From: Chloroflexota bacterium
GTDB taxonomy: Bacteria; Chloroflexota; UBA6077; JACCZL01
Length of the DNA stretch: 45,044 nt
Direction: 5' to 3'
Assembly: GCA_020850535.1 (NCBI GenBank)
Contig: JADZEM010000006.1
Span: 1-45,044 of the forward strand
The notes under the pieces: model-generated
What the model was told of the DNA's origin: nothing
Database searches by the model: none
The model's input: only the letters and a program-made list of their open reading frames with translations
Made by a program: the position numbers and the translations under genes
Part shown: positions 18,735-37,133 of the stretch, piece by piece
Position numbering within the stretch: position 1 is the first letter of the stretch
Layout: each line of letters starts with the position of its first letter

Positions 18735-18795
18735 CTGCACCCTGACCACGTTGGCAGCATGCCCTCCGGAAGCCCGAGGCGGGCGGGGCATCACA

Positions 18796-19012
18796 CAGGG
18801 CGATTGCACGTTGAGCAGGTTGCGCAGCGCCGTCGGGGCTTGAAAGCCCCGCCTACCATCCTGCAGTCGCTTCGCGACGCTCCGGTCTCACCTGTTGCCG
18901 CTGCTCCCGGCGTCCGTCGCGCAGCGACGGAGTGAGTGTAGGCGGGGGTTTCAACCCCCGACGGCGCGTTGCATGGCGTTGCGGGAACATCAACGAACGT
19001 GCAATCGCCCTG
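18796..19012 (+). mobile_element. 217-bp MITE copy 1, with 10-bp target duplications
   Basis: Ends are CAGGGCGATTGCACGTT (18796-18812) and its exact inverse (18996-19012). The element is flanked by the perfect direct repeat GGGCATCACA at 18786-18795 and 19013-19022. Inside lie four hairpins: GGGGCTTGAAAGCCCC near 18836, GTCGC-TTC-GCGAC near 18866, CCGTCGC-GCA-GCGACGG near 18914, and GGGGGTTTCAACCCCC near 18944. There is no coding capacity. Copy 2, inverted, is at 24135-24351 with about a dozen mismatches and no length change. It ends 33 bp before the -10 box of the LysM gene. Confidence 0.92.
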
Positions 19013-19041
19013 GGGCATCACACCCGCCGGTATCACGAAGG

Positions 19042-19050
19042 TGCTACAAT
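19042..19050 (+). promoter_or_regulatory. extended -10 promoter of the LysM gene
   Basis: TGC-TACAAT, 33 bp beyond the MITE. A -35 element would lie in the short stretch between MITE and -10, so insertion may have set or altered the upstream promoter context. Confidence 0.5.
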
Positions 19051-19085
19051 CGGCCGGCGATCACCTTCCCCCGAGGCAGATCCTG

Positions 19086-19682
19086 GTGCGTTCCTACAGG
19101 CTGGCGGACGAGACGCTGGACGACGACGAGGATGGCTACCCGCGCGTGGTGTCGATCACGCCGGGGTCGCGATCCCGAGGGGGCGCAGGCCGCCGCGAGC
19201 CGTGGACACCCGGAGGCGCCGTGACGCCAGACTCGCCGCCGCGCGCCGCTGCGCCGCAAGCGCCACCCCTCCAGACGGGCCTGACCCGCGCTCACCGGTT
19301 GATGCTGCTCGGGTTCGGGGTGGTCTGCGCCGGCATGGTGCTCGGGATGGTGCTGGTGCGGATCTGGGACGACGCGAGCCGGGCCGTGGCAGCCCTTCCG
19401 CCGGAGGGCACGGCTGCACCAGCCCGCCCGGTGGCCACGGCGCCGGCGCCGCCTCCGGCAGAATCCGCACCGCCCCAGGCCGATCCCGCGGCCGGGCAGC
19501 CACAGCAGGGCGCGGTCACCACCGAGATCCGCGTGATTCAGCCGAACTACACGGTCGTGCCCGGCGACACGCTGAACAGCATCGCCCGGCGGCACGGCTC
19601 GTCGCTCGACGCGCTGGCGTCGATCAACAACCTGGAGAATCGCAACTCGCTGTCGGTCGGTCAGCGGCTGATCGTCCCGTAG
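19086..19682 (+). CDS. membrane-anchored LysM domain protein
   Basis: A 198-residue protein. Residues 1-72 are polar, acidic and then Pro/Ala-rich and presumably cytosolic; about 74-95 (LMLLGFGVVCAGMVLGMVLV) is one membrane helix; a Pro/Ala linker follows; the last 45 residues (YTVVPGDTLNSIARRHGSSLDALASINNL...LSVGQRLIVP) are a complete LysM motif that binds peptidoglycan or related glycans. The GTG at 19086 was chosen because GAGG lies about ten bases upstream and the TACAAT promoter lies just ahead. A longer reading would begin inside the MITE and precede the promoter. It sits before the beta-lactamase-fold gene, suggesting wall-related context. Confidence 0.8.
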   Translation: MRSYRLADETLDDDEDGYPRVVSITPGSRSRGGAGRREPWTPGGAVTPDSPPRAAAPQAPPLQTGLTRAHRLMLLGFGVVCAGMVLGMVLVRIWDDASRAVAALPPEGTAAPARPVATAPAPPPAESAPPQADPAAGQPQQGAVTTEIRVIQPNYTVVPGDTLNSIARRHGSSLDALASINNLENRNSLSVGQRLIVP

Positions 19683-19780
19683 GCGCAGGCGGCGGCGTCG
19701 TTCGCGTTGGGATGAATGTGCAATCCCAGGTTCTCACATTTGTGCGTCCTTCGTGACGTGACGAAACACCAGCCGCCGGC

Positions 19781-19786: not shown

Positions 19787-19849
19787 CGCTGTGCCTGCTG
19801 CAGCGTTCGCGCTGCCCGAGCCATGCTCGACAGCCCGGCCGGAGGTTCC

Positions 19850-21013
19850 GTGTCCCAATCGATAGCTCGCCGACGCGCGACCCGTGCGCGTCCGTCGGCC
19901 GACCGGGGCCCGGCAGCCGTGCCACGCGGCGCTGTCCCGAAGTCGTCATTCCGTCCAGGAAGCCGCCCGCCGCGCCACGGCCCGTTTTTCGGGTTGCGTG
20001 GCCGCTCCATCGCCGCCGCCCTGGCTGCGTACGTGCTGGTCGGCGCATTCATCGGCCTGGCCGGCTGGAAGCTCACCGAGACGGCCGTCGAGACGATGCA
20101 GTCGTCCGAGGTGGCCGCGGTGATGGCTCAGCCTGAGGTGGCTGCTGTCGCTGCGCCGCCGCCCGCTCCACGCGGGCCACACCTGGACGTCGCGCTGCTC
20201 AACCTGCTGGAGCGGCAGGCGCCGGCCAATGGGTTCGTGGGCCTCTACGTGCGGAATCTGACGACGGGCGCAGAGGCCAGCATCAATCCGAATCGGGTCT
20301 TCCCGGCGGCAAGCTTGTACAAGGTGCCGATCATGGTCGAGGCGATTCGACAGATCCGGCTGGGGCGGATCTCGGCGGATCAGACCTTTGTCGTGCAGAA
20401 GGCGCACTGGGTCGGCGGTTCGGGCGTGCTGCAGAGCCGCGTTGGGGACGCCATCGAGGTGCGCGAGCTGCTGCGCCTGCTGATCGCCGAAAGCGACAAC
20501 ATCGCGGCCATGATGTTGATCGACATTACGGGCCTGAACAACGTCAACCAGACCATGCGCGGCCTGGGCCTCAACGCCACCTCGCTGGCCGATTTCCGGG
20601 CGCAGAACGCCAACAACGGCCTCGGACCGTATGTCAGCAGCCCGCAGGACATGGCGATGCTGCTCGACACCATCGCGACCGGGCGGCTGGTCGATCAGCA
20701 GACGTCGGACGAAGCGCTGAAGCTGCTGTCGCTCAAGCAGGCCAGCGACCTGCTCGGCGAGGCGTTGCCCTGGGACGTCAAGGTGGCCCACAAGTGGGGC
20801 GAGATCCCCGGCGCGCGCCACGAGGCCGGGATCATTCTGACGCCGAAGTACAAGTACGTCATCGTGGTGATGACGGAGAGCGTCGATCCGCGCGGCTCAC
20901 CCAGCTACATCCGCGACCTGTCGAAGTCGGTCTACGACTTCTTCGAGCAGCAGACGATGGCGACTGCCGCCGCGCCCGCGCCTGCCTCCGGCGAAACGAC
21001 GGCCGGCCAGTAA
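19850..21013 (+). CDS. membrane-anchored serine beta-lactamase-fold protein (class A-like)
   Basis: A 387-residue protein with a basic cytosolic N-terminus (1-51), one membrane helix (52-72) and an outside catalytic domain. ASLYK gives Ser155 and Lys158 of the SxxK motif; AESDN gives Ser215-Asp216-Asn217; HKWG (314-317) takes the place of KTG. The ExxLN omega-loop glutamate needed for class A deacylation is not seen in the expected region (LADFRAQNANNGLGP). It may therefore be a wall peptidase or penicillin-binding relative rather than an efficient lactamase. The start GTG has GGAGG four bases upstream; an ATG at 19823 lacks a ribosome site. The protein ends in an Ala/Pro tail. Confidence 0.78.
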   Translation: MSQSIARRRATRARPSADRGPAAVPRGAVPKSSFRPGSRPPRHGPFFGLRGRSIAAALAAYVLVGAFIGLAGWKLTETAVETMQSSEVAAVMAQPEVAAVAAPPPAPRGPHLDVALLNLLERQAPANGFVGLYVRNLTTGAEASINPNRVFPAASLYKVPIMVEAIRQIRLGRISADQTFVVQKAHWVGGSGVLQSRVGDAIEVRELLRLLIAESDNIAAMMLIDITGLNNVNQTMRGLGLNATSLADFRAQNANNGLGPYVSSPQDMAMLLDTIATGRLVDQQTSDEALKLLSLKQASDLLGEALPWDVKVAHKWGEIPGARHEAGIILTPKYKYVIVVMTESVDPRGSPSYIRDLSKSVYDFFEQQTMATAAAPAPASGETTAGQ

Positions 21014-24064: not shown

Positions 24065-24134
24065 GAGCGGCGACGTCGGGGGGTGAGGGGCTATTGCCGC
24101 AACTCCTCGTCAAACACGATCAAGTCCCGACGCG

Positions 24135-24351
24135 CAGGGCGATTGCATGTTCGTTGACGTTCCCGCAACGCCATGCAACGCGCAGGCGGGGGTCGAAACC
24201 CCCGCCTACACTCGCTCCGTCGCTGCGCGACGGACGCCGGGAGCAGCGGCAACAGGTGAGACCGGAGCGTCGCGAAGCGACTGCAGGATGGTAGGCGGGG
24301 CTTTCAAGCCCCGACGGCGCTGCACGGCAAGCCCAACGTGCAATCGCCCTG
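24135..24351 (-). mobile_element. 217-bp MITE copy 2, with 10-bp target duplications
   Basis: Inverted relative to copy 1. Ends CAGGGCGATTGCATGTT (24135-24151) and AACGTGCAATCGCCCTG (24335-24351) differ by one base. The flanking direct repeat is TCCCGACGCG at 24125-24134 and 24352-24361, perfect and unrelated to that of copy 1. Internal hairpins are the same as in copy 1, with a cluster of changes next to one terminal repeat. It sits between divergent promoters, 40 bp before the NIPSNAP -10 box and 70 bp behind the Rieske -10 box. No coding capacity. Confidence 0.92.
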
Positions 24352-24387
24352 TCCCGACGCGGCTGCCGGATGGCGAGCAGGGGCCGC

Positions 24388-24803: not shown

Positions 24804-26516
24804 CTACGGGAAGTCGCGTGGGAAGAGCTGTACCCGCCGATACGGCTCCCGCCCCAGGCTCCGCGACCCGAGGTTGTACCGCTCAGCCAGTTGATGCTGA
24901 AGCCGCCGCACGTACGCGCTCTGCGGAGACAGCTCGATTGGCCGCGTCTCCTCAAGCACCTGTGCGATGGCGTCTTCGGTCTCCTGCAGCGCTGATGTGG
25001 TGGCTGAGGTCGTGGATCGATCCATCTGGGCGATCCGCGACAGGCCCTCCTCGATCTGGCCGCCGCTGTTGCCGCGCAAGACGTGGATCGGCGTGCCGTT
25101 CGCCTCGGCGTCCCGAAGCGGCTGCGGCTTGCGCCGATAGTAGTTCTTGAGCGTCATGACCACGTCGGCGTCGTTGGGATCGTCGGTCAGCACGACCGGC
25201 AGATGCATCGCGCGGATCATCTGCTCCGTGCGGGAGCGATTGACGCCGTAGGCGAACAGCGCCAGCGTCTTCCCGTTGCCAGCGGTTGTCCCCGGCTCCG
25301 GGTCTCGGCTGAGGCGCGGCGCACGCTCGCCATCGGTCCGCTCGCGCGGCCGGTCCGGCGCACGGTCTCGGTCCCGGTCCCGCTCGCCGATGTCACGCAC
25401 CCGGCCCCGCCCGAACGGGGTCGGCGCGGGCGCCTCGCCATCCGAGGTCGGCAGGAGCTGTGGCGGGCCGGCCCGCCGTGGTGGCGGCTTCTCGATCTGG
25501 ACCTCGCCCCGGTCGTCGCGGTACCGGATGGCGGCCGGCCGCGCGTGCCCGCGCAGCAGGGCGTCGATCACATCGGCCACGTTCTCGTGGACGGCGACGC
25601 GGTTCCAGTTCTGGATCTCCACCACCACGTCGAACGTGGGCGGCGCTTTCCGCTCCAGCACGGACTTCTGCGTCCCGCGTCGGCGCGCCTCCTCGTCGCC
25701 GAGCGTGACGGTCTGAATCCCGCCGATCAGATCGGCGAGCGTCGGGTTGAGCATCAGATTCTCGAGCGTGTTGCCGTGAGCCGTCGCGATGAGCTGCACG
25801 CCGCGCTCGGCGATGGTGCGCGCCGCCTGGGCCTCCAGCTCGGTCCCGATCTCGTCGATGACGATGACTTCGGGCATGTGATTCTCGACGGCCTCGATCA
25901 TCACGCCGTGCTGAGCGGTGGGCGTGGGCACCTGCATCCGCCGCGACCGTCCGATGGCGGGGTGCGGGATGTCGCCGTCGCCGCCGATCTCATTCGAGGT
26001 GTCCACGATGATGGTGCGCTTGCGAAGGTCGTCCGCCAGCACACGCGCCGCCTCACGCAGCATCGTGGTCTTGCCGACACCTGGACGGCCCATCATCAGC
26101 ACGCTGCTGCCAGACTCCACCAGATCGCGAATGATCGAGATGGTGCCGTAGACAGCCCGACCGACCCGGCAGGTCAGCCCGATGACCCGACGGTCGCGGC
26201 TTCTGATCGCCGAGATGCGGTGCAGCGTGCGCTCGATGCCGGCGCGGTTGTCGTCTCCGAACTGGCCGATGCGGCCGATGACGTGGTCGATGTCGTCGAC
26301 CGTCACCGGCTCTTCGGCGAGCATGACCTCCCGACCTGGCAGGCGCGCTTCGGGAAGTCGGCCGAGATCCATCACCACTTCGAGCAGATCGGTCTGATCG
26401 GGCAGTGCCTCGAGTGGGAGACGGATACGCGGCGGCAGCACGTCCAGCAGCAGTCCGAGATCGTCTGTGACCTGCAACTGGGGCTGCGAAATGGGTTGTC
26501 CGAGTCTGTCGGCCAT
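24804..26516 (-). CDS. Ycf45/SpoIIIAA-like AAA ATPase with R3H domain
   Basis: A 570-residue ATPase of the Ycf45 family. Residues about 110-300 form the ATPase core: GRPGVGKTT (143-151) is Walker A, VIVIDEIGTELEAQAARTIAERGVQLIATAHG (217-248) contains Walker B and the sensor, similar to SpoIIIAA and secretion ATPases. Residues about 370-400 are a charged, disordered linker rich in Arg/Asp (RDIGERDRDRDR). About 415-500 is an extra alpha/beta domain. The C-terminus (QHQLAERYNLGSRSLGREPYRRVQLFP) is R3H-like, a single-stranded nucleic acid binder. Function in bacteria is undefined. The ATG overlaps the preceding GNAT stop by one base (TAATG), with GGAGG in front, so the pair is coupled. Confidence 0.87.
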   Translation of the reverse strand: MADRLGQPISQPQLQVTDDLGLLLDVLPPRIRLPLEALPDQTDLLEVVMDLGRLPEARLPGREVMLAEEPVTVDDIDHVIGRIGQFGDDNRAGIERTLHRISAIRSRDRRVIGLTCRVGRAVYGTISIIRDLVESGSSVLMMGRPGVGKTTMLREAARVLADDLRKRTIIVDTSNEIGGDGDIPHPAIGRSRRMQVPTPTAQHGVMIEAVENHMPEVIVIDEIGTELEAQAARTIAERGVQLIATAHGNTLENLMLNPTLADLIGGIQTVTLGDEEARRRGTQKSVLERKAPPTFDVVVEIQNWNRVAVHENVADVIDALLRGHARPAAIRYRDDRGEVQIEKPPPRRAGPPQLLPTSDGEAPAPTPFGRGRVRDIGERDRDRDRAPDRPRERTDGERAPRLSRDPEPGTTAGNGKTLALFAYGVNRSRTEQMIRAMHLPVVLTDDPNDADVVMTLKNYYRRKPQPLRDAEANGTPIHVLRGNSGGQIEEGLSRIAQMDRSTTSATTSALQETEDAIAQVLEETRPIELSPQSAYVRRLQHQLAERYNLGSRSLGREPYRRVQLFPRDFP

Positions 26517-36766: not shown

Positions 36767-36801
36767 TCGACCCACGCTCCTTCACAAACTGAGAGTCGCT
36801 G

Positions 36802-36981
36802 CTCGGGTGGCCCTTCAGCGTCGGACGCCGGCGCTGTGGGCAGAATAGGGAAGACGGTGAGAATCCGTCGCGGTCGCGCCACTGTGAGCGGGGAGTCGGC
36901 AGCACGTTGCCACTGCGTCCACCGGGTGGATGTGGGAAGGCGCTGACGACGTCGATCCGCCAGCCAGGAGACCTGCCCGAG
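36802..36981 (+). promoter_or_regulatory. cobalamin riboswitch
   Basis: Adenosylcobalamin-sensing leader RNA. CTCGGG (36802-36807) pairs with CCCGAG (36976-36981) as P1. Inside are the conserved GGGAAGACGGTGAGAATCCG core, GCGGTCGCGCCACTGTGAG, a second GCCACTG, GGGAAGGCG and the B12-box end CAGCCAGGAGACCTGCC. The following 150-nt leader has hairpins, including CCGCA/TGCGG (37098-37116) abutting the GGGGAAAGGG ribosome site of cobO, so control of translation is likely. Bound cobalamin should switch off cobO-cobN-chlID-cobB. Confidence 0.95.
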
Positions 36982-37133
36982 TATGCCGGGACGCCGTTCT
37001 CCGCGTCAGAGAGCCGCCCGACACGTCAGCTCCAGGTCCGACACGGACCGCGCGGGCGACAGTGCCGGCTCGGACCTGCGCTCCGGCTCCCGTTGAACCG
37101 CATCGCGATTGTGCGGGGAAAGGGTAGAGACTG

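Follow-up and report, generated by a model that had tools for sequence, protein, structure and literature searches.

The window analyzed here, a stretch of 45,044 nucleotides from a Chloroflexota genome, carries two copies of a 217-bp element that is, on the evidence of its sequence, highly likely to be an ISAs1-family MITE, a non-autonomous miniature served by a transposase acting in trans. By the count of its ends, about 300 such elements are present in the host genome, and together they make up ~1% of its 7.65 Mb. The element represents a real, apparently undescribed ISAs1-type MITE family of a kind that is itself known.

Copy 1 was read directly from the sequence as GGGCATCACA / CAGGGCGATTGCACGTT ... 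AACGTGCAATCGCCCTG / GGGCATCACA, and the interval 18786-19022 comprises the element together with both copies of its target duplication (Table 1). Its terminal inverted repeats (TIRs) are 17 bp long and 100% complementary, and its duplicates agree at 10/10 positions, the chance of which is ~4e-6 at this G+C content. With three or fewer mismatches, the 17-mer end occurs four times in the window, at both ends of the two copies, against an expected 0.09. Copy 2 lies in the opposite orientation between perfect duplicates of TCCCGACGCG. Folded as single-stranded DNA, copy 1 with its duplicates reaches -86.8 kcal/mol (z = -9.7 relative to shuffled sequences). No family covering copy 1 was found in an Rfam search of the window, and a mechanically listed ORF that starts within it (18932-19756) matched no NCBIfam family. 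At 217 bp, with 17-bp TIRs and no coding match, the element has the features by which a MITE is recognized, namely a size below 500 bp, TIRs and the lack of a transposase gene. The preliminary description of a multi-hairpin MITE with no coding capacity and a perfect 10-bp duplication on both sides is therefore upheld.

Table 1. Features of the two MITE copies in the window
Feature	Position	Strand	Basis
Left 10-bp target duplication GGGCATCACA, copy 1	18786..18795	.	sequence reading; 10/10
ISAs1-type MITE (highly likely), 217 bp, copy 1	18796..19012	+	TIR and copy comparison
Left terminal inverted repeat CAGGGCGATTGCACGTT, copy 1	18796..18812	+	complementarity
Hairpin 1, GGGGCT-TGAA-AGCCCC	18835..18850	+	99.0% of cells paired; two pairs with double changes (three copies each)
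Hairpin 2, GTCGC-TTC-GCGAC	18866..18878	+	99.3% paired
Hairpin 3, CCGTCGC-GCA-GCGACGG	18914..18930	+	94.4% paired
Hairpin 4, GGGGGT-TTCA-ACCCCC	18944..18959	+	99.6% paired; GGGGAC-TTCA-GTCCCC in about half of copies
Right terminal inverted repeat, copy 1	18996..19012	-	complementarity
Right 10-bp target duplication GGGCATCACA, copy 1	19013..19022	.	sequence reading
Left target duplication TCCCGACGCG, copy 2	24125..24134	.	sequence reading
MITE copy 2, 217 bp, 94% identity to copy 1	24135..24351	-	end pattern and comparison
Right target duplication TCCCGACGCG, copy 2	24352..24361	.	sequence reading

Several other features were noted in the window. Close to the element, an ORF at 19823-21013 (+) matches class A beta-lactamase models, the best at 100 bits and below the 200-bit cut-off, and a 570-aa ORF at 24804-26516 (-) has a stage III sporulation AA-like match of 69 bits, also below the cut-off. 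A Cobalamin riboswitch (36788-36994, +) and a bacterial RNase P RNA (2486-2809, +) were found as well.

The preliminary description had proposed a search for further copies, and these are abundant. With up to one mismatch, the 17-bp end gave 570 matches in the host assembly (G000, 7.65 Mb in 227 contigs) and none for the reversed control. Ends were then paired in a sample of ~1.95 Mb of this genome, consisting of stretches partly picked for holding copies; it contains 86 monomers within 214-220 bp, and 65 of these measure exactly 217 bp. Long contigs totalling 1.46 Mb hold 42 monomers of this size range. Across all size classes of the 1.95-Mb sample, 46 elements are flanked by perfect 10-bp duplications and a further 15 by duplications matching at 9/10 positions, while an 11-bp duplication was seen at none of these 61 elements. 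All 61 duplications differ in sequence, which indicates dispersed transposition rather than segmental duplication; the many dispersed copies with target duplications are likewise those of a MITE. Elements with other inner sequences and sizes (86, 108, 217, 234 and 293-319 bp) have the same ends and 9-10/10 duplications. Since many contigs stop within a copy or a dimer of the element (for instance, at C118:1-147, C123:11-190, C15:1-100, C19:1-162 and C60:1-164), the true copy number is probably higher than counted, and the element helps to account for the fragmentation of the assembly. A recent insertion of copy 1, which had been suggested from its intact duplication, receives weak support: perfect 10-bp duplications are still found around copies with only ~84-86% identity to copy 1, and an insertion cannot be dated by the intactness of its duplication alone.

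Elements of the ISAs1 family are reported to have TIRs of 14-22 bp starting with CAGGG and a 10-bp target duplication (PMC11946415); the range for the family is 8-10 bp. The MITE end, CAGGGCGATTGCA[C/T]GTT, is 17 bp long and of this CAGGG type, and the 10-bp duplication falls within the range of the family. The ISAs1 insertion sequences (ISs) that we measured, from Chloroflexota and other phyla, showed CAGGG-type ends and, in many cases, 8-10-bp duplications. Two remnants of an ISAs1 transposase were recognized in the host genome with the NF033564 profile, one on contig C136 and a truncated copy on C187; a search with this profile found no intact ISAs1 transposase in the assembly. In the C136 remnant (C136:21107-27873, within locus L079 starting at C136:15000) the gene has a frame change and is interrupted by 5.5 kb of inserted DNA, in which Rfam places a group II intron (L079:6344-6443, minus strand). 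The ends of this remnant, CAGGGGGATTGCAT and CAGGGCGATTGCAT, have ~13 bp in common with the MITE end.

The closest relative of the host ISAs1 transposase, at 78% identity, is encoded on a contig (L121) of the Chloroflexi MAG MGR_bin229; in contig number and coordinates L121 agrees with G001, a genome that shares its GTDB family with the host. Against NF033564 (positions 1-314) this transposase reaches 397 bits; close to the C-terminus there is a shift in its reading frame. The L121 IS is 1256 bp long (1658-2913), with ends CAGGGCGATTGCATGTT and CAGGGCGATTGCATGAT. The first of these equals the MITE end, in its commoner form, at 17/17 positions, and the other is identical over its first 15 bases; the window copy departs from this form by C for T at base 14. 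An IS with the ends of the MITE, for which the preliminary description had advised looking, is thus present as a full-length ISAs1 element in a close genome, without a matching target duplication at its flanks. The sequence common to the MITE and the IS is confined to 13-17 bp at the ends, and an origin of the MITE by internal deletion of the IS is accordingly unsupported.

Because the ends, the duplication length and the end of the L121 IS agree, mobilisation in trans by an ISAs1 transposase is the best reading of these sequences, and the earlier suggestion of an undescribed family mobilised in trans is very probably correct. The parent had previously been left unassigned, with the IS4 group mentioned among possible sources. 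The IS4 group makes duplications of about 10 bp, and the duplications of the MITE are compatible with such a parent. However, a relative has an IS of the ISAs1 family that carries the commoner end in full, and the ISAs1 remnants of the host itself carry part of the same end. On the strength of these common ends an IS4-group transposase was set aside as very improbable, and the ISAs1 family is put forward as the very probable parent in its place. The ISAs1 transposase is a DDE-type enzyme. In the proposed mechanism, this enzyme would come from a full-length IS acting in trans, of which the assembly now contains a broken version or none at all. It would bind the 17-bp ends, move the 217-bp DNA and insert it at a target cut with a 10-bp stagger, and repair of the cuts would duplicate the target. 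Apart from the ends, the element has no sequence in common with the IS, and its inside may then act as a spacer of near-constant length with four small hairpins.

Insertion sites were classified with a simple GC-frame gene caller. By this measure, 50 of 57 insertion points are intergenic, compared with 103 of 400 random positions (Fisher P ~1e-19). Of the seven remaining sites, six lie so near the start (first 13%) or the stop (last 2%) of a called ORF that the call itself may be at fault; among these six is the window copy, directly upstream of a gene for a LysM-like protein (LysM recognized by eye). At the seventh site (C65:17108-17325), a copy splits a phosphonoacetate hydrolase gene. When the flanks of this copy are joined with one duplicate removed, a 387-aa ORF results that matches PDB 3szy at E 2e-88, gap-free across the junction. 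This is the empty site, lacking the element and one duplicate, that had been sought for a MITE, in a single case reconstructed from the copy's own flanks. Given this site and the hundreds of further copies, neither of the two outcomes that the preliminary description had named as refuting it was observed. Target preference is weak and symmetrical: A is found nine bases outside the duplication, on both sides, at 39% versus 15.5% (P ~2e-10).

In an alignment of 80 copies, 97.9% of the cells in the four local hairpins are paired. Hairpin 4 occurs about equally often as GGGGGT..ACCCCC and GGGGAC..GTCCCC, so that two pairs have both sides changed in 39 of the 80 copies, and double changes are also seen in hairpin 1. 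If the two G-rich palindromes are instead paired with each other over the long range, only 80% of cells pair, in contrast to 99% for the local hairpins; it is therefore the local hairpins that are kept. The pairing is no proof of selection, since the cells count sequences rather than events. As to size variants, the 108-bp forms resemble the 217-bp form minus the 109-bp stretch that spans hairpins 1-4, and in elements of 293-319 bp the hairpin contains an insert with inverted repeats of a different kind. At C123:34368-34661, C60:29087-29379, C143:84791-85109 and C19:7741-7975, the G-rich hairpin was seen to enclose foreign inverted repeats whose ends resemble TGATGAAGATT / GACGAAAT; another element may use this hairpin as its target.

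The intergenic bias and the well-paired stems with their double changes would also fit copies kept for host use as intergenic RNA or DNA structures, such as a terminator, an mRNA stabiliser or a nucleoid site, a role compatible with a MITE origin. We regard such a role as unlikely. Selection against gene disruption predicts the same intergenic bias, and the double changes may reflect a few events that were widely inherited or template-switch repair of palindromes. Moreover, a DNA search of 60 relatives returned nothing beyond one 27-bp match, which argues against an old conserved function. Among 400 genomes of the phylum, the end pattern gave a single match in each of three others, one of these being the ISAs1 IS itself.

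The G-rich hairpins are flanked by CGTC and CTAC/GTAG, and tags of the GTAG and CGTC type have been described for REPs (PMC3733652). Palindromic repeats of the REP/BIME type, with a RAYT tyrosine transposase as their mover, would be free-standing, whereas GTAGGCGGGG, counted on either strand in 1.46 Mb, occurs 75 times in complete elements and 24 times outside them. Most of the outside matches belong to copies of the element that are truncated, degenerate or at a contig end; the others stand alone and lack a hairpin. REPs are not known to carry 17-bp TIRs with 10-bp duplications. As no free-standing GTAG/CGTC-tagged palindromes were found in the 1.46 Mb, the RAYT reading was dropped as exceedingly improbable.

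The dimers are the unusual part of the MITE family. Tandem copies are separated by a recurring 10-bp spacer, either ATGCTGCTAC (62 places, with up to one mismatch) or AGTCACGAAC (18 places, with up to two mismatches), in the layout 217 bp, spacer, 217 bp, which gives a unit of 443-446 bp. Among complete readable arrays, five of ten in the ATGCTGCTAC lineage and five of eight in the AGTCACGAAC lineage have a 9-10/10 duplication of their own, and all of these differ. The second copy has a mutated inner end, with a mean of 3.8 and 2.4 of 13 bases changed in the two lineages, respectively, while the outer ends show mean mismatches of only 0.5 and 1.1 of 17. The separate duplications, the mutated inner end and the preserved outer ends together imply that the dimer transposes as one unit, using its outer ends, and the spacer, exactly as long as the target duplication, is probably a fossil of one. 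A second copy would have landed in a duplicate flanking the first, leaving the 10-bp spacer; the pair would then have moved through its outer ends, as a unit of ~444 bp, while one inner end decayed. With the fossil-duplication spacer, the loss of the inner end, two lineages at ~62 and 18 places and the trimers, we consider it likely that the MITE formed these composite dimers itself. Trimers were noted as pairs of 10-bp spacers ~228 bp apart at C112:46588-46832, C218:27799-28043 and C202:12-257. The dimers offer a testable case of composite units arising from single miniature elements in bacteria.

A literature search covering few subscription papers found neither an ISAs1-type MITE nor a dimer unit of a bacterial MITE; so far as this search shows, an ISAs1-type MITE family at ~300 copies is unreported. 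Among known systems, the ISAs1-family ISs recognized by NF033564 are closest, with CAGGG ends, 14-22-bp TIRs and 8-10-bp duplications in common with the MITE and the end of the L121 IS identical to it. In contrast to these ISs, the MITE is 217 bp long and has no transposase gene, and only the ends are common. In Geobacter uraniireducens, the Chunjie MITE measures 178-235 bp, has conserved TIRs and direct repeats and occurs in tens of copies, mostly intergenic; it thus resembles the element in size and location, but has another host and fewer copies, and the review mentions no tandem units (PMC10969869). MITEPye1, an IS1182-type MITE of Paracoccus yeei with long stem-loops, is likewise non-autonomous and shares its TIRs with a full IS family, but differs in its IS1182 parent and in its 1-3 copies per chromosome (PMC11578231). 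Correia, ERIC (up to 711 copies; PMC10969869) and other high-copy bacterial MITEs resemble the element in their tens to hundreds of short intergenic copies, a likeness of description, whereas they belong to other hosts and families.
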